Source of the DNA: Vibrio orientalis CIP 102891 = ATCC 33934
Lineage (GTDB): Bacteria; Pseudomonadota; Gammaproteobacteria; Enterobacterales; Vibrionaceae
Length of the DNA stretch: 64,000 nucleotides
Assembly: GCF_000176235.1 (NCBI RefSeq)
Contig: NZ_ACZV01000003.1
Coordinates: 62,001-126,000 of the forward strand
Reading direction: 5' to 3'
Part shown: in pieces, positions 13,942-22,560 of the stretch
Numbering within the stretch: position 1 is the first letter of the stretch
Layout of the letters: each line of letters starts with the position of its first letter
Notes under the pieces: model-generated
What the model saw: the letters and a program-made list of their open reading frames with translations, nothing else
What the model was told of the DNA's origin: nothing
Database searches by the model: none
Position numbers and translations under genes: made by a program

Positions 13942-15390
13942 ATGACAACCCAAACTGTACCGACCGAAGAAAAAAAAGGTGGCTTCTTTGCCAACTTCAA
14001 ATTCCCTTCTGCATACACCATTCTTTTTATCTTAATTGCTTTAGTGGCAATGCTGACTTGGATCGTTCCCGCGGGTCAATACGACCGTGCAATGAATGAA
14101 GACCTAGGTCGTGAAGTTCCTGTCACTGGTACTTATCAAGCTGTAGAAGGGAACCCTCAAGGTGTGATTGATGTACTTCTAGCACCTATTGATGGCTTCT
14201 ACGACCACAATAGCTATGAAGCTGCTGCAATCGATGTTTCTCTTTTCATTCTTATCATCGGTGGCTTCCTAGGACTAGTAACCAAGACAGGTGCGATTGA
14301 CGCAGGTATTGAACGCGTTACCCATCGCTTGCAAGGTAGAGAAGAGATGATGATTCCTATCTTGATGGCACTGTTTGCAGCCGGCGGTACTGTCTATGGG
14401 ATGGCGGAAGAGTCACTGCCTTTCTACACCCTACTCGTTCCTGTGATGATGGCCGCTCGCTTTGACCCATTGGTCGCAGCCGCAACCGTTCTTCTTGGTG
14501 CTGGTATCGGTGTGCTCGGTTCTACAATTAACCCATTTGCGACGGTAATTGCAGCCAACGCTTCTGGTATTCCATTTACCGACGGCATTATGCTGCGCGC
14601 TCTCATGCTAGTGATTGGCTACGGTATCTGTGTCGCTTACGTGATGCGCTATGCTCGCATGGTTCGTGAAGACCAAAGCAAGTCTATCGTTTACGACAAG
14701 TACGAAGAGAACAAGGCGCACTTCCTTGGCAACCAAGATGGCGGTTCTCTAGAGTTCACAACTACGCGTAAAGTAATTCTAACTATCTTCGGTGGTTCAT
14801 TCGGGGTAATGATTTACGGTGTATCTGTCGCAGGATGGTGGATGGCAGAGATCTCAGCCATGTTCCTAGCAGCAACGATTCTTGTTGGTCTAGTGGCTCG
14901 CATGAGTGAGGAGGACTTTACCAATAGCTTTATCGACGGCGCTCGTGACCTACTGGGTGTCGCACTGATCATCGGTATTGCCCGTGGTATCGTGGTAGTG
15001 ATGGACCGCGGTATGATCACCGACACTATCTTGTTCTCAGCAGAACAGATGGTGACTGGTCTATCGTCAGTGGTGTTCATTAACGTGATGTTCTTCCTAG
15101 AGATTCTACTGTCATTCCTAGTGCCATCAACGTCAGGTCTAGCGGTATTAACCATGCCAATCATGGCACCACTTGCTGACTTTGCGGGTGTTGGTCGTGA
15201 GCTTGTGATTACTGCTTACCAATCTGCTTCAGGTCTAGTGAACTTAATTACACCAACATCAGCGGTAGTAATGGGTGGTCTAGCTATCGCTCGCGTCCCT
15301 TACGTTCGCTGGGTGAAATGGGTCGCGCCACTACTCGCGATTCTGACTCTGTTCTGCATTGTATGTCTAAGTATTGCAGCGCTAATCTAG
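13942..15390 (+). CDS. arcD: YfcC-family membrane transporter, probable arginine/ornithine antiporter (ArcD role)
   Basis: 482 residues with about 12 hydrophobic segments, of the YfcC/DcuC-like group of the ion-transporter superfamily. Landmarks: TWIVPAGQYDR near the N-terminus, AGGTVYGMAEESLPFY, LGSTINPFATVIAA and the C-terminal LVPSTSGLAVLTMPIMAPLADF with ASGLVNLITPTSAVVMGGLA. Several Gram-positive ArcD exchangers belong to this family, and the next three genes are arcA, arcC and an ornithine carbamoyltransferase, so arginine-in/ornithine-out exchange is the best guess. Specificity is inferred from neighbours only. It is separated from arcA by 1.1 kb of repeats and has its own terminator, so it is a separate transcription unit. 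Confidence 0.85.
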   Translation: MTTQTVPTEEKKGGFFANFKFPSAYTILFILIALVAMLTWIVPAGQYDRAMNEDLGREVPVTGTYQAVEGNPQGVIDVLLAPIDGFYDHNSYEAAAIDVSLFILIIGGFLGLVTKTGAIDAGIERVTHRLQGREEMMIPILMALFAAGGTVYGMAEESLPFYTLLVPVMMAARFDPLVAAATVLLGAGIGVLGSTINPFATVIAANASGIPFTDGIMLRALMLVIGYGICVAYVMRYARMVREDQSKSIVYDKYEENKAHFLGNQDGGSLEFTTTRKVILTIFGGSFGVMIYGVSVAGWWMAEISAMFLAATILVGLVARMSEEDFTNSFIDGARDLLGVALIIGIARGIVVVMDRGMITDTILFSAEQMVTGLSSVVFINVMFFLEILLSFLVPSTSGLAVLTMPIMAPLADFAGVGRELVITAYQSASGLVNLITPTSAVVMGGLAIARVPYVRWVKWVAPLLAILTLFCIVCLSIAALI

Positions 15391-15492: not shown

Positions 15493-15924
15493 AGAGATTC
15501 CCTACTCGCTCCTTCGTCACTCTATGGAATGACTAACAAGCCTCTTCCTCACTACAGCATTGTCATCCTCAAGAATGAGGAACCAACGAGATGGGGATCT
15601 CTTAACCCTAGTCGCGATATTTTAGAGATTCCCTGCTCACTCCTTCGTCGCCCTATGGGATGGCTAACAAGCCTCCTCCTCACTACAGCACTGTCATCCT
15701 CAAGAGTGAGGAACCAACGAGTTGGAGAGTTCTTAACGCTAGTCGCGATATTTTAGAGATTCCCTGCTCACTCCTGCCGCCCTATGGAATGACTAACAAG
15801 CCTCCTCCTCACTACAGCACCGTCATCCTCAAGAGTGAAGAATGAACGAGTTGGGGATCTCTTAACGCTCGTCGCGATATTTTTGAGATTCCCTGCTCAC
15901 TCCTTCGTCGAACTATGAAATGAC
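15493..15924. repeat. Tandem cluster of palindromic repeats (family A), one half copy and three full copies
   Basis: A half copy at 15493-15533 is followed by full copies at about 15562-15664, 15693-15793 and 15822-15924. They are spaced by a conserved 28-29 bp linker (AACAAGCCTCCTCCTCACTA core), giving periods of 131 and 129 bp. Each full copy runs from GTCATCCTCAAG to a TGGAATGAC-like end, with inner arms TTGGGGATCT and AGATTCCCTGCTC. Confidence 0.85.
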
Positions 15925-16400
15925 TAATTCAAATATCATCATTCGATAATTATATATCTCGATATTTATAATAAGAAAAACTATCGCTATCAATTAACTC
16001 CATTAATCAATCTTATTTTAGTGTTCAACGCATTTTAAATAGTCAATGTGATCCAGAACAAATTTATTATCAAAAGTTTTGTTACCAAAGGCGTAAATCA
16101 CCCTTTAAAAACACTTAACTAAGAACTTATAGTGCATATTTCTATTCTATTCACTGTTTTATCAAAGTTATTAAATTGAATATCTTTCCCCCAAACCACC
16201 TTTTGTCTAATTCCACGCATAAACTAATGCATAAACTTCCCAAGAACATAGCTAAATAGGGCATTCACATCCAGATAACAAGTGAATAGATATTGTTAAA
16301 ACCCTTATAAATCAAGGCCTGGAGCATAAAAAACGAACTGTGATTGACCTCTAAGAATCCCCTGCCAACAGGCGTAATATGAATTCCAGAAACAAAATAA

Positions 16401-16492: not shown

Positions 16493-17716
16493 ATGAGTAA
16501 GTTATACGTAGGTTCTGAAATCGGTCAATTACGTCGCGTCCTTGTTCACCGCCCTAGACGCGCTCTCACTCACTTAACACCTTCTAACTGTCATGATCTA
16601 CTGTTTGATGATGTACTTGCAGTAGAACGCGCAGGTAAAGAGCACGATGTGTTTACTCAAACACTACGTGACCAAGGTGTCGAGGTTCTACTACTTACTG
16701 ACCTTCTTGCTGACACACTTGCAGTGCCAGAAGCAAAAGACTGGCTACTAAGCCGTCAGGTATCTGATTACCGTTTAGGTAAAACATTTGCTAATGACGT
16801 GCGCTGCTACCTAGGCGACCTTCCAAACCTAGAGCTAGCGAAGATCCTGACGGGTGGTCTGTCTTACGCTGAAATGCCAATGAAGTCTTCTTCAATGCTG
16901 CAAGGTCTTCACGCTCCAACAGACTTCATCATCGAGCCACTACCGAATCACCTATTCACTCGTGACACGTCATGCTGGGTATACGGTGGCGTATCTATCA
17001 ACCCGATGGCGAAACCAGCTCGTCAACGTGAAACTAACCATGTTCGCGCTATCTACCGCTGGCACCCAACTTTCGCCGGCCAAGACTTCATTAAATACTT
17101 TGGCGATGACGAAAACATCAACTACGACAACTCTACCATCGAAGGCGGTGACGTATTGGTTATCGGTCGCGGCACAGTACTTATCGGCATGTCTGAGCGT
17201 ACAACCGCACAAGGTGTTGAGCACTTAGCATCAGGCCTATTCAAACATGGCCAAGCGAAGCAAATCATTGCGATGGAGCTACCAAAACACCGCTCTTGCA
17301 TGCACCTAGATACCGTAATGACGCACATGAACGAAGACACCTTCTCTGTCTACCCAGAAGTGGTACGCAAAGATGTGAAGTGCTGGAGCCTAACTGGCGA
17401 TGAGTCTGGCGCAGTTAACGTCAAAGAAGAAGGCTACTTCGTAACAGCTATCGAGAAAGCGCTTGGCGTAGACAAGCTAAATCTGATCACTACCGGTGGT
17501 GACAACTTCCACGCAGAACGTGAGCAGTGGAACGACGCGAACAACGTTCTCACTGTGAAACCTGGCGTGGTTATCGGCTACGAAGGCAATACTTACACCA
17601 ACGAGAAATACGACAAAGCAGGCATCACTGTCCTACCTATCCCAGGTGATGAGCTAGGTCGTGGTCGCGGCGGCGCTCGCTGCATGAGCTGCCCAATCGA
17701 ACGTGACGGCATTTAA
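16493..17716 (+). CDS. arcA: Arginine deiminase
   Basis: First enzyme of the arginine deiminase (ADI) pathway: arginine to citrulline and ammonia. 407 residues, full length. Guanidino-group-modifying enzyme motifs are visible: [11 protein letters not shown] near the N-terminus, [31 protein letters not shown] and the C-terminal nucleophile motif [10 protein letters not shown] with Cys397 as the likely catalytic residue. Ribosome site AGAGAG precedes the ATG. arcC follows after 60 bp and the ornithine carbamoyltransferase after another 105 bp, making an arcA-arcC-arcB/argF row. The upstream half-sites suggest control by an ArgR-type protein. Confidence 0.97.
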
Positions 17717-17776: not shown

Positions 17777-18688
17777 ATGACTAAACAAACTGTAGTTGTA
17801 GCACTAGGTGGTAACGCTCTTCTTCGCCGCGGTGAACCGTTGGAAGCAGATGTACAACGCCACAACATTGAAATCGCGGTAAAAACCATTTCTGAAATCG
17901 CTCAAGAGTACAACGTAGTACTTGTCCACGGTAATGGCCCACAAGTTGGATTACTGGCTCTACAAGGCTTGGAATACAAAAAAGTGGCACCTTACCCATT
18001 AGACGTATTGGGCAGTGAGACTCAAGGCATGATCGGCTACATGCTGATGCAAGAATTCAAAAACCAAATGCCTAACGTCAACGCAACTTGCATGTTGACC
18101 CAGATGACGGTCGATCCAAAAGATCCTGCATTCGCTGACCCAACTAAGCCAATTGGCCCTATTTACGAAGAAGCTGAAGCGCGTGAGCTGGCAGAGAAGT
18201 ACCACTGGACAATCAAGCCAGACGGCCAGCACTTCCGCCGTGTAGTACCTAGCCCACAACCAACGGGCATCATTGAGCATGAAGCGATCACTGCGCTTAT
18301 CGAACAAGGTCACCTAGTAATTTGTACTGGCGGTGGCGGTATTCCGGTGAAACGCGAAAACGGCAAGTTAGTCGGTGTTGAAGCGGTTATCGACAAAGAT
18401 ATGTCAGCTGCATTCCTCGCTAAGCAGTTAGATGCCGATGCACTGCTTATCCTGACTGATGCCGACGCGGTTTACCTAGATTGGGGCAAACCAACCCAAC
18501 ACGCACTGCGCAGCACTAACCCAAGCGAACTGGCGAAATACCAATTTGATGCTGGTTCTATGGGACCAAAAATCGAAGCATCGTGCGAGTTCATTAATCA
18601 AGGCGGCAAAGTAGTCGGTATCGGCTCACTGCAAGATGGTCTGCAAATTCTTCAAGGCACAGCCGGCACTAACATCACTAAAGGCTAG
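17777..18688 (+). CDS. arcC: Carbamate kinase
   Basis: Makes ATP from carbamoyl phosphate and ADP, the energy step of the ADI pathway. 303 residues of the amino-acid-kinase fold: VVVALGGNALLRRGE at the N-terminus, VLVHGNGPQVGLL, FRRVVPSPQP (family-specific), VICTGGGGIPV, AVIDKDMSAAFLA and LLILTDADAVYLDWG. Length and motifs match known ArcC proteins. It sits between arcA and the carbamoyltransferase gene, consistent with one transcript. The ATG follows AAAGAGATAACAGC. Confidence 0.97.
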   Translation: MTKQTVVVALGGNALLRRGEPLEADVQRHNIEIAVKTISEIAQEYNVVLVHGNGPQVGLLALQGLEYKKVAPYPLDVLGSETQGMIGYMLMQEFKNQMPNVNATCMLTQMTVDPKDPAFADPTKPIGPIYEEAEARELAEKYHWTIKPDGQHFRRVVPSPQPTGIIEHEAITALIEQGHLVICTGGGGIPVKRENGKLVGVEAVIDKDMSAAFLAKQLDADALLILTDADAVYLDWGKPTQHALRSTNPSELAKYQFDAGSMGPKIEASCEFINQGGKVVGIGSLQDGLQILQGTAGTNITKG

Positions 18689-18793: not shown

Positions 18794-19804
18794 ATGGCTT
18801 TTAACCTACGTAACCGTAACTTCCTAAAACTATTAGACTTTACTCCACGTGAAATCCAACACTTCTTGGACCTTTCAGCGGAACTGAAAAAAGCGAAATA
18901 CAACGGCTATGAGCAACCTCGTCTAAAAGGTAAAAATATTGCGCTAATTTTCGAGAAAACATCGACTCGTACCCGTTGTGCATTTGAAGTTGCAGCATTT
19001 GACCAAGGCGCTCAAGTGTCTTACTTAGGCCCATCTGGTTCTCAAATTGGTCACAAAGAGTCAATGAAAGATACTGCTCGCGTTCTTGGTCGCATGTACG
19101 ACGGCATCGAGTACCGTGGCTTCGGTCAAGAGATCGTTGAAGAGCTAGGCGCATACGCTGGTGTACCAGTATGGAACGGTCTAACAGACGAATTCCACCC
19201 AACTCAAATCCTAGCTGACTTCCTAACGATGATGGAACACGGCCGTGGTAAACAACTGCACGAAATGAAGTTTGCTTACCTAGGTGATGCACGCAACAAC
19301 ATGGGTAACTCACTCATGGTTGGCGCAGCGAAAATGGGCATGGACATCCGTCTAGTCGCTCCAAAAGCATTCTGGCCAGAAGAAGAGCTAGTGGCAACTT
19401 GCCGTGAAATCGCACAAGAGACTGGCGCGAAAATCACAATGACTGAAGACGTTCAAGAAGGCGTTCAAGGCTGTGATTACCTATACACTGACGTTTGGGT
19501 ATCGATGGGTGAAGCGAAAGAAGCTTGGGCTGAGCGTATTAACCTAATGATGCCTTACCAAGTAAACATGGAAATGCTTAAAGCAACAGGCAACCCACAT
19601 GTGAAATTCATGCACTGTCTACCAGCGTTCCACGGTGAAGATACCACTGTTGGTAAAGAGCTAGCAGCAGAATACCCACAACTGAAAGATGGTGTGGAAG
19701 TAACAGATGAAGTGGTTGAGTCTAAGCACTCTATCGTCTTCGATGAAGCTGAAAACCGCATGCACACAATCAAAGCGGTAATGGTTGCGACACTAGGTGA
19801 TTAA
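18794..19804 (+). CDS. argF: Ornithine carbamoyltransferase
   Basis: Interconverts ornithine + carbamoyl phosphate and citrulline + phosphate. 336 residues with the carbamoyl-phosphate motif [26 protein letters not shown], and the ornithine-loop motif [10 protein letters not shown]; length equals E. coli ArgF/ArgI (334). Position behind arcA and arcC suggests the catabolic direction (arcB role), whereas E. coli-like sequence and the neighbouring pyrBI allow a biosynthetic role. Which one cannot be decided without knowing whether another copy exists in the genome. Ribosome site GAAGGAAAAC precedes the ATG. Confidence 0.95.
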
Positions 19805-19822
19805 TCACCACTAGTCGCAGCT

Positions 19823-19965
19823 AATACTCAAAATAGTTGGAGCTGTAGCAAGGCAACAAATGAATGAGTCTTCCTGAGTTTAGTCCGCTAAATGATTGGC
19901 TGGGCCGGCACTCCGGGCGAATGAATGCAGTTAACGCCGCTACAGTTTCAAATATGAAGAGTATT
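19823..19965. repeat. ERIC-like palindromic repeat downstream of the OTC gene
   Basis: About 143 bp with complementary ends: AATACTCAAAATAGTTGGAG at one side and TTTCAAATATGAAGAGTATT at the other. The inner segments AGCTGTAGCAAGGCAAC and GCAGTTAACGCCGCTACAG match what I remember of the enterobacterial ERIC consensus ends. Related copies are at 53566-53674 and, reduced to ends, at 43682-43718. Confidence 0.75.
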
Positions 19966-19974
19966 TCTGCAGGG

Positions 19975-20034
19975 AAATGCGGGTGGCATGATGACTCTTC
20001 TCGATTATGTCTGAATAAAGCCCGCATTTTTTTT
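19975..20034 (+). terminator. Probable terminator of the arcA-arcC-argF row
   Basis: AAATGCGGG (19975-19983) and CCCGCATTT (20021-20029) pair perfectly across a 37-base loop and are followed by TTTTT. The long loop makes it unusual, but the T-run supports termination. Confidence 0.6.
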
Positions 20035-20161
20035 CATTGAGCATTAGAGAATTTTCTAACAAATACGCCCTCAAGCAAGATCTATCAAAGGTAGATTAAA
20101 AGTTTCGAAAAGATGCGAAATTCGCATAAAAATCCAATTTCTGGATACTTTTCGCAAACGC

Positions 20162-20189
20162 TTGCGTGGCGTTTTTTTGTGCGTATAAT
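20162..20189 (+). promoter_or_regulatory. Sigma-70 promoter of pyrL-pyrBI
   Basis: -35 TTGCGT (20162-20167) and a perfect -10 TATAAT (20184-20189) with 16-bp spacing, about 31 bp before the leader-peptide ATG. Confidence 0.7.
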
Positions 20190-20219
20190 CCTCCGCAATT
20201 TGTCTAAGGAGAGTTAAAA

Positions 20220-20312
20220 ATGACACAGTCACCGACAACCTTTCGTTGTTACCAAACGCGCCCAGAGTCGGGATCGTTTTCTGTTTCATTCTCTCTATTG
20301 ATTCTATTTTAA
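20220..20312 (+). CDS. pyrL: pyrBI operon leader peptide
   Basis: 30-codon ORF starting [18 protein letters not shown] and ending SLLILF, preceded by the good ribosome site AAGGAGAG. Its stop codon overlaps the base of the attenuator hairpin (20311-20335). The second half of the message is U-rich (many TTT/TCT/ATT codons), as expected for UTP-sensitive attenuation: when UTP is low RNA polymerase pauses, the leader ribosome catches up and blocks the terminator. The peptide sequence is not similar to E. coli PyrL, but position and design are the same. Confidence 0.8.
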
Positions 20313-20340
20313 AGCCTCCTATTTCAGGGGGCTTTTTTTT
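20311..20340 (+). terminator. pyrBI attenuator
   Basis: Ten-pair stem AAAGCCTCCT/AGGGGGCTTT (one G-U) with loop ATTTC, followed by eight T residues, 31 bp before the pyrB ATG. Confidence 0.88.
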
Positions 20341-20370
20341 GTCTGTAAATCACGACTAGGAAACATTGCT

Positions 20371-21300
20371 ATGGCGCATTCGTTATTTAATAAGCACATC
20401 ATCTCCATCCCTGAGCTCAGCCGTGAAGAGCTAGAGCTTATCGTTGATACGGCGGCAAGATTAAAAGCTGAACCCAATCCAGAACTGTTGAAGAACAAAG
20501 TCGTGGCAAGCTGCTTCTTTGAGCCGTCGACTCGTACTCGTCTTTCATTTGAAACGGCTGTCGAGCGTTTAGGTGGCAGCGTGATTGGCTTTGATAATGG
20601 TGGTAACACATCACTGGCGAAAAAAGGCGAAACATTGGCTGACTCGGTCCAGGTTATCGCTTCGTATGTTGATGCGTTCGTTATGCGTCACCCACAAGAA
20701 GGCGCAGCACGTCTGGCGTCTGAATTCTCTAAAGGAGTGCCAATCATCAACGGTGGTGACGGCGCTAACCAGCACCCGACGCAGACACTACTCGACCTAT
20801 TCTCTATTCATGAAACTCAAGGCACGTTAGACAACCTCAACGTAGCATTTGTTGGCGACTTAAAATATGGCCGTACTGTTCACTCACTGACTCAAGCTCT
20901 GGCGAAATTTAACAATGTGCGCTTCTTCTTTATCGCCCCTGATGCACTAGCGATGCCAGATTACATCTGTGAGGAACTCGAAGAATCCGGAATCCAATAC
21001 AGCACTCACAGCAATATTGAAGAGGTGGTGCCTGAGCTTGATGTTCTTTATATGACGCGCGTGCAGAAAGAACGTTTTGACGAGTCGGAATATGCACATA
21101 TGAAGTCAGCATTCATCTTAACGGCCGCAACGCTAGAGGGCGCACGAGATAATCTAAAAGTGCTTCACCCATTGCCACGCGTTGACGAAATCACAGTAGA
21201 TGTCGACAAAACCAAACACGCTTACTACTTCGAGCAAGCAGAAAATGGCGTTTACGCTCGCGAAGCGCTACTGGCTCTCGTTCTAAACCAAACCATTTAA
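20371..21300 (+). CDS. pyrB: Aspartate carbamoyltransferase catalytic subunit
   Basis: Commits carbamoyl phosphate and aspartate to pyrimidine synthesis. 309 residues; carbamoyl-phosphate site [14 protein letters not shown], the [12 protein letters not shown] stretch, and the aspartate-loop HPLPRVDEI are intact. It forms the c3/r2-type dodecamer with PyrI, encoded 16 bp downstream. Expression should depend on the leader peptide and attenuator directly upstream. Ribosome site AGGAAAC precedes the ATG. Confidence 0.98.
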
Positions 21301-21316
21301 TTGCAGGAGAGATATC

Positions 21317-21781
21317 ATGGTGAAAGAAACTCAACTTCAGGTAGAAGCGATTCGTAATGGCTCTGTGATCGACCATATCCCTGCGAATATTGGGATTAAA
21401 GTACTTAAGCTGTTCAAAATGCATAAGTCGAATCAGCGAATCACTATTGGCCTTAACCTGCCTTCATCAGCATTAGGTGCGAAAGACCTGATCAAAATTG
21501 AGAACATCTACCTAACGAAAGAGCAAGCTAACCAGTTAGCCCTTTACGCACCGAAAGCAACGGTCAATCAGATTGAAGAGTACAAGGTGGTCAATAAACT
21601 CAACTTGGTTCTGCCTAACAGTATTGAAAGTGTTTTTGAATGCCCGAACAGCAACTGTATTTCACATGGTGAGCCAGTAGAAAGTCGCTTTAAGGTGCAA
21701 GAAAAACATGACAATGTGCAGCTAAAATGTCACTACTGTGAAAAAGTATTCTCTCGTGAAATTATGACAGAAGCTCGCTAG
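21317..21781 (+). CDS. pyrI: Aspartate carbamoyltransferase regulatory subunit
   Basis: 154-residue allosteric subunit binding ATP/CTP. The N-terminal allosteric domain has the family stretch [18 protein letters not shown]. The C-terminal zinc domain shows all four cysteine ligands (CPNSNC and CHYCEK). Length equals E. coli PyrI (153). It follows pyrB by 16 bp with its own GCAGGAGAG ribosome site, so the two are one operon. Confidence 0.98.
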
Positions 21782-22071: not shown

Positions 22072-22560
22072 ATGAGTGAAACTCTAAACCCTAGTGTCAT
22101 TGATTACAGCGAAGATAAAACGCTGACGGCTGCCTGCAAACGTTTATTACAGCAACAGAGCTTCACAACCCAAAATGAGTTGCGAGAAGCTCTGGTTGAT
22201 ATTGGTTTTCAAGGTATTAGCCAATCCACGGTATCAAGACTCCTGTCTCAGCTCGGGGTCGTGAAAGTACAAAATGCCTGCGGCAAAAAGGTATACTGTA
22301 TTACGGTAGAAACCGCCCCTGTGCGTGTCGAATCCTCGATCTCTTCTCAGATTGAGTTCATTACTCATAACCAAGCGATGGTGGTAGTGAAGACCCACCC
22401 AGGCAGTGCCCAGCTGGTTGCACGTTTAGTGGATATTGACCCTCACACCGAGATCCTCGGTACGGTCGGGGGGAATGATACGGTGCTAGTCATTCCTAAA
22501 GACACCGACCACATCGATGCGTGTGAACGTGTCGTTCGAGCAAGGCTAGGCGTCGCTTAA
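22072..22560 (+). CDS. ArgR-family transcription regulator (paralogue beside the ADI genes)
   Basis: 162 residues with both ArgR domains: a winged helix at about 15-80 (recognition segment SQSTVSRLLSQLG) and a C-terminal hexamer/ligand domain with HPGSAQLVARLVD and EILGTVGGNDTVLVI. In E. coli ArgR the last motif reads GTIAGDDTI and both aspartates (D128, D129) bind the ligand; here the first is N135. Ribosome site AAGGAG precedes the ATG. The position next to arcA/arcC/argF and pyrBI suggests it controls the ADI genes, while a standard ArgR (next to mdh in Vibrio, as I recall) would be encoded elsewhere. The ligand may differ from arginine; see findings. Confidence 0.9.
   Translation: MSETLNPSVIDYSEDKTLTAACKRLLQQQSFTTQNELREALVDIGFQGISQSTVSRLLSQLGVVKVQNACGKKVYCITVETAPVRVESSISSQIEFITHNQAMVVVKTHPGSAQLVARLVDIDPHTEILGTVGGNDTVLVIPKDTDHIDACERVVRARLGVA

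Follow-up and report, generated by a model that had tools for sequence, protein, structure and literature searches.

ArgR is a textbook amino-acid-sensing repressor with a ligand pocket for which detailed models exist. Which ligand, then, is sensed by an ArgR-family protein that is encoded at the end of an arginine deiminase (arc) cluster and carries Asn in place of the acidic residue that holds the guanidino group of arginine? Such a protein is encoded in Vibrio orientalis CIP 102891 = ATCC 33934 at positions 22072-22560 of the window, by which we mean the whole stretch of 64,000 nucleotides that was analysed. Activation of arc genes by a regulator from the same locus is already known from Vibrio fluvialis (PMC11172107), and the Asn change of the pocket is, as read from the alignments, real and conserved. 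The V. fluvialis study treats its regulator as an ordinary ArgR and makes no mention of the Asn or the pocket, of a second ArgR, of ligand choice or of citrulline sensing (PMC11172107). A clade fixed for a neutralised key carboxylate, with a reversion where the partner genes are gone, is a natural experiment on the evolution of ligand choice in an allosteric hexamer. It makes testable how bacteria with both arginine synthesis and arginine breakdown prevent cross-talk of two related regulators.

The arc locus and its regulator

All genes of the cluster lie on the forward strand. The ORF of arcD (13942-15390) encodes an arginine/ornithine antiporter of the YfcC family, in synteny with arc loci. 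It is followed by arcA (16493-17716), whose product, arginine deiminase, makes citrulline and is 73% identical to the annotated E. coli ArcA, and by an ORF for carbamate kinase, arcC (17777-18688), in synteny with annotated arcC. ORFs for ornithine carbamoyltransferase, arcB (18794-19804), and for the catalytic and regulatory chains of aspartate carbamoyltransferase, pyrB (20371-21300) and pyrI (21317-21781), complete the order arcD-arcA-arcC-arcB-pyrB-pyrI. The cluster is closed by the regulator gene (22072), after which a dsbD-like gene begins (22710). The earlier note had placed arcA about 5 kb away from the regulator gene, and it does lie 4.4-5.6 kb upstream. In the intergenic region between arcD and arcA, three direct repeats of about 130 bp each, 81-89% identical, follow one another in tandem (15494-15927).

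Second copies of several of these genes are found on another contig of the genome, C5. There argF-pyrB-pyrI-ridA (L269:25-2708) is found just ahead of mdh and the housekeeping argR, and its argF, pyrB and pyrI are 83-84%, 86% and 74% identical, respectively, to arcB-pyrB-pyrI of the window (18794-21781); the genome thus encodes aspartate carbamoyltransferase, complete with its regulatory chain, twice. C5 also carries a second gene for arginine deiminase (L269:12437-13663), which is separated from the housekeeping argR by about 7 kb, is 76% identical to arcA of the window and is of the type that occurs as lone arcA in Vibrio genomes devoid of a cluster copy (G073, G009, G001, G031, G094, G066).

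The regulator ORF has an ATG start and encodes 162 amino acids. Both Pfam ArgR domains are detected (PF01316 and PF02863; 54.4 bits at a cut-off of 27 and 62.4 bits at a cut-off of 25), which assigns the protein to the ArgR/AhrC family. Its NCBIfam scores are below the ArgR equivalog cut-offs (NF003457, 134.7 against 194; TIGR01529, 114.7 against 130.45), whereas the housekeeping ArgR of the same genome passes both (274.3 and 143.2). The sequence LVARLVD, which includes the equivalents of Arg110 and Asp113, corresponds to the LIAR--D motif defined for ArgR of the E. coli group (PMC7248756). A fold model matches the ArgR structures 3V4G (V. vulnificus) and 1XXA (E. coli); the overall pLDDT is a moderate 78 and the domains are not oriented, and the C-terminal domain of the model superposes on 1XXA at 1.7-2.0 A.

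The regulator thus shares the two-domain fold and the Arg110 motif with the housekeeping ArgR proteins of E. coli, V. vulnificus and V. orientalis itself. The last of these (L001, on contig C5) has the motif GVVAGDDT, is only about 43% identical to the regulator of the window and is encoded beside mdh rather than beside an arc cluster. It is a candidate regulator of arginine synthesis. Since this second, housekeeping ArgR with Gly-Asp-Asp (GDD) is present in the same genome, "paralogue", as the earlier note had it, is the correct label for the protein of the window. A housekeeping ArgR with GDD was found throughout Vibrio, and the examined genomes that have the paralogue also encode a housekeeping ArgR. 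As in other arginine deiminase-linked ArgR activators, the gene lies beside arcDACB by synteny and the protein falls into a clade apart from ordinary ArgR, a split with support of 100/99.

The ligand pocket

In the beta5-beta6 turn, where arginine-sensing ArgR proteins have Gly-Asp-Asp with Asp128 and Asp129, the protein of the window has Gly-Asn-Asp (GND). Translation of the ORF confirms the motif GTVGGNDTV read in the earlier note, with N135 at the position of the first Asp. In the alignment to E. coli ArgR, N135 corresponds to Asp128 and D136 to Asp129 (codons at 22474-22479, forward strand), Q114 to Gln106, D121 to Asp113 and R118 to Arg110 (codon at 22423-22425, forward strand), the latter being Arg in 115 of 115 aligned rows. 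Also borne out is the claim that N135 occupies the place of an arginine-contacting residue: Asp128 of E. coli ArgR forms a salt bridge to the guanidino group of L-arginine, and in the unliganded protein it pairs with Arg110 (PMC2880562). The alpha groups of the ligand are held by Gln106, Asp113, Thr124, Ala126, Asp128, Asp129 and Thr130 (PMC2880562). An equivalent of Asp128 is absent from some ArgR homologues, according to a study from 2020 (PMC7248756).

Among 67 non-redundant GND proteins Arg110, Asp113, Gly127 and Asp129 are invariant, while Gln106 is found in 64 and Thr130 in 60 of them. To judge by these residues, the part of the pocket that reads the amino-acid moiety has been retained, and the part that reads a positive charge has been neutralised. 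Decay of the pocket is rejected for the GND proteins, since Arg110, Asp113 and Asp129 do not vary and Gln106 hardly does. It is plausible for the paralogues with the motif Gly-Ser-Ser (GSS). In the alignment, the arc-linked paralogues of Enterobacteriaceae show A104Y, Q106R, D128S, D129S/N and T130I. These changes look like loss of the ligand site.

Distribution of the Asn residue

The motif was compared among loci of Vibrio, other Vibrionaceae, two more families of the same order (f2 and f25) and Enterobacteriaceae; f25 is taken as Aeromonas from a named locus (L234) with the same gene order and motif. The 88 distinct arc-linked paralogues comprise 82 with GND, five with GSS, one with GSN and none with GDD, and ordinary or other non-arc ArgR show GDD in 71 of 71 distinct sequences, including the second ArgR of V. 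orientalis; both counts are of related, non-independent sequences, and three changes on the tree suffice to account for the four states. The six GSS and GSN proteins are all from Enterobacteriaceae. With Asp in none of the 88 linked proteins but in all 71 ordinary ones, the change at N135 is systematic. Alignment of the linked group, which the earlier note had recommended, reveals Asn to be fixed in the arc-linked paralogues of Vibrionaceae (including Photobacterium), f2 and f25/Aeromonas. The finding named in that note as fatal to its idea, Asn being common in ordinary ArgR, did not occur (0/71), which rules out Asn as the common state of such proteins.

Both Asn codons are in use (89 copies with AAC, 86 with AAT), so that the residue rather than the codon is kept, which points to selection on the residue. 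The Asn is unchanged while the identity of the paralogues drops to about 44%. A chance or sequencing variant is ruled out by the 82 distinct arc-linked copies and the two codons. Only 31 of 299 genomes sampled across the phylum gave a hit to the ArgR C-terminal domain, and nearly all of these belong to the order that includes Vibrio; the paralogue clade therefore looks confined to that order. One arc-linked regulator (L107, 5992-6486) is inverted and sits on a very long branch (1.21), yet has GND.

Loss of the arc genes and return to Asp

In a tree built with columns 128 and 129 removed, four Asp-type paralogues are nested in the GND clade beside arc-linked copies (100/99). A tree that places the Asp proteins outside the GND clade is not rejected by the AU test alone (p = 0.31). 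Gene order bears on the same point. Two loci (L105, L106) have atpI-atpB, the arc block, a GND regulator and a DUF3541-like gene; four others (L108, L109, L110, L170) have atpI-atpB, a GDD regulator and the same DUF3541-like gene, assigned to DUF3541 by Pfam in L110, without the arc block. From this comparison, the Asp-type paralogues derive from the arc-linked locus: in one Vibrio lineage, atpIB-arcDACB(-pyrBI)-regulator-DUF3541 has become atpIB-regulator-DUF3541, and the regulator has Asp in five of five copies. Three of these Asp-type genomes lack any arcA, and in two a diverged arcA is all that is left. Gene order thus supports descent by removal of the arc genes beside the regulator, with the residue Asp again, at an AU p of 0.31; the return to Asp is counted as a single event.

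Six Photobacterium-type genomes (g8: L167-L169, L171, L181, L182), which keep a GND regulator in the absence of any arcA, speak against a strict link of the Asn to arginine deiminase. In these genomes the regulator sits between pyrI and a ridA-like gene. In Vibrio ostreicida the Asn is kept as well, and the examined stretch beside the regulator has no arc cluster.

Predicted operator sites

In V. fluvialis, the argR beside arcDACB (AMF95903) is needed for expression of arcD and arcACB, despite the GDD housekeeping ArgR found throughout Vibrio, and its product binds both promoters directly; the arc genes are induced 8- to 34-fold by L-arginine added at 25 mM (PMC11172107). Two of the functional sites upstream of arcA in that species are present in the window of V. 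orientalis. V. fluvialis site 2 is matched by TGCATAAACTTCC (16228-16240, forward strand), a conserved predicted half-site for ArgR that precedes arcA by 265 bp, and site 3 by GTGAATAGATATTGTTAA (16282-16299, forward strand), a conserved predicted site 211 bp upstream of the same gene (PMC11172107). With up to two mismatches allowed, they occur in 28 and 25, respectively, of 68 non-redundant arcA upstream regions and in none of 68 shuffles. TGMATA half-sites are enriched upstream of arcA (3.96 per region, 0.95 by chance) and of arcD (2.63 and 1.02). Over the whole window, the number of full palindromic ARG boxes does not exceed expectation (six matches with up to two mismatches against 4.6). 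The direct action in V. fluvialis and the conservation of two sites speak for the proposal of the earlier note that the linked ArgR would regulate the arginine deiminase genes.

What does the regulator sense?

As the acidic residue that holds the guanidino group is Asn here, is fixed as Asn in linked copies and never so in ordinary ArgR, the regulator of the window probably senses something other than arginine. With the alpha contacts kept and the carboxylate of Asp128 replaced by Asn, the pocket would suit a neutral isostere of arginine. Citrulline fits best, being such an isostere as well as the product of the controlled gene. The D128N exchange in E. coli ArgR reportedly moved preference from arginine toward citrulline (Niersbach and colleagues, 1998), a report on which the present argument does not draw. 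Ornithine is less likely, given its positive side chain, the opposite of what neutralisation of Asp128 favours. The best explanation, though we hold it somewhat more apt to be wrong than right, is a citrulline-sensing activator of the arc genes with product feedback, its ligand and the feedback being deduced from the pocket. The regulator would be a dedicated, hexameric ArgR-type activator of the arginine deiminase genes that acts on ARG half-sites in front of arcA and, if V. fluvialis is a guide, on the arcD promoter as well. Its pocket would hold the alpha-amino and alpha-carboxyl groups, with Asn in place of the guanidino-holding carboxylate, and respond to a neutral arginine isostere, most probably citrulline. 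Basal ArcA, for which the genome has two genes, would turn arginine from outside into citrulline, and citrulline would lock the regulator in its active form, giving a positive feedback that is insulated from the normal arginine pool driving the housekeeping ArgR. The second ornithine carbamoyltransferase on C5 is a complication for the citrulline model, since this anabolic enzyme also makes citrulline and the sensor could fire during arginine synthesis.

The citrulline sensor is one of three live readings, because Enterobacteriaceae have lost the Asp residues and Gln106 and some Photobacterium keep Asn without arcA. Rather less probable is that ligand sensing has been given up, the protein binding DNA constitutively, forming mixed hexamers or acting in concert with the arginine-sensing housekeeping ArgR. 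Loss of Asp128, Asp129 and Gln106 from the arc-linked homologues of Enterobacteriaceae favours ligand-independent action or partnership, and indicates that a regulator of this kind can also succeed after losing its ligand. The V. fluvialis protein gave a gel shift under buffer conditions for which neither arginine nor citrulline is listed (PMC11172107), which fits the former, and co-occurrence with a housekeeping ArgR in the genomes examined fits the latter, for which the division of labour between ArgR and AhrC in Lactococcus lactis is a precedent (PMC6586332). However, strong conservation of every other pocket residue in the GND proteins would be surprising for a pocket that binds no ligand, and an identity of only about 43% to the housekeeping ArgR argues against mixed hexamers. 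Nor is the gel shift decisive, because weak DNA binding in the absence of arginine is also a property of E. coli ArgR.

That the pocket still senses arginine with lower affinity, so that the housekeeping ArgR would respond to little arginine and catabolism would start only once arginine is plentiful, we consider unlikely. Arginine is the physiological inducer in V. fluvialis, Asp129, Asp113, Gln106 and Arg110 remain, and Asn can still serve as a hydrogen-bond acceptor. But the induction in vivo is compatible with either arginine or citrulline as the signal, since ArcA converts the one to the other, and many changes could weaken an arginine site, yet the same residue is affected throughout, as Asn clade-wide and as Ser in the Enterobacteriaceae branch. 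It is very improbable that the Asn was simply inherited within the clade and matters little for which ligand is bound. The small number of changes on the tree and the persistence of Asn in the Photobacterium-type genomes without arcA agree with such inheritance; the constancy of Asn down to about 44% identity with both codons in use, and the return to Asp in a lineage with deleted arc genes, speak against it. As a tentative history, which we think doubtful as a whole, a citrulline-sensing ArgR may have arisen once in the gammaproteobacteria by neutralisation of Asp128, activating the arginine deiminase genes by product-sensed positive feedback; the ligand would have been lost in Enterobacteriaceae and an arginine-type pocket regained in the arc-deleted Vibrio lineage.

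Related systems

The V. fluvialis locus resembles that of the window in its order arcD, arcA, arcC, arcB with argR downstream and pyrB/pyrI associated, as taken from accession numbers and text. In V. furnissii (L075), the sister species of V. fluvialis, the regulator has GTVGGNDT. Salmonella RosE (STM4463), an ArgR-family paralogue in an arginine deiminase islet, is a counterpart by location and description and binds DNA upstream of the std fimbrial genes (PMC2328253). In L. lactis, two ArgR paralogues, one encoded upstream of arc, control the arc operon, with ArgR binding DNA and AhrC as the sole arginine sensor (PMC6586332). Unlike the Vibrio-type protein, which activates, the non-sensing ArgR of this Firmicutes species represses arc at low arginine. 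The arginine deiminase of Salmonella is reportedly regulated by STM4463 (Choi, 2012). The arc-linked ArgR of E. coli and other Enterobacteriaceae differs from the Vibrio paralogue, which lacks Asp128 only, by GSS or GSN together with Q106R, both Asp residues being gone.

In the examined stretch of a Staphylococcus arc plasmid a Crp/Fnr regulator is present and ArgR is absent. In Enterobacteriaceae, the arc cluster with a GSS regulator is also found on plasmids, for example E. coli plasmid pEc-050-T5-ESBL_2 (L231). Matches to ArcA and the regulator occur in about 239 E. coli plasmid records, and many of these plasmids are predicted to be conjugative.
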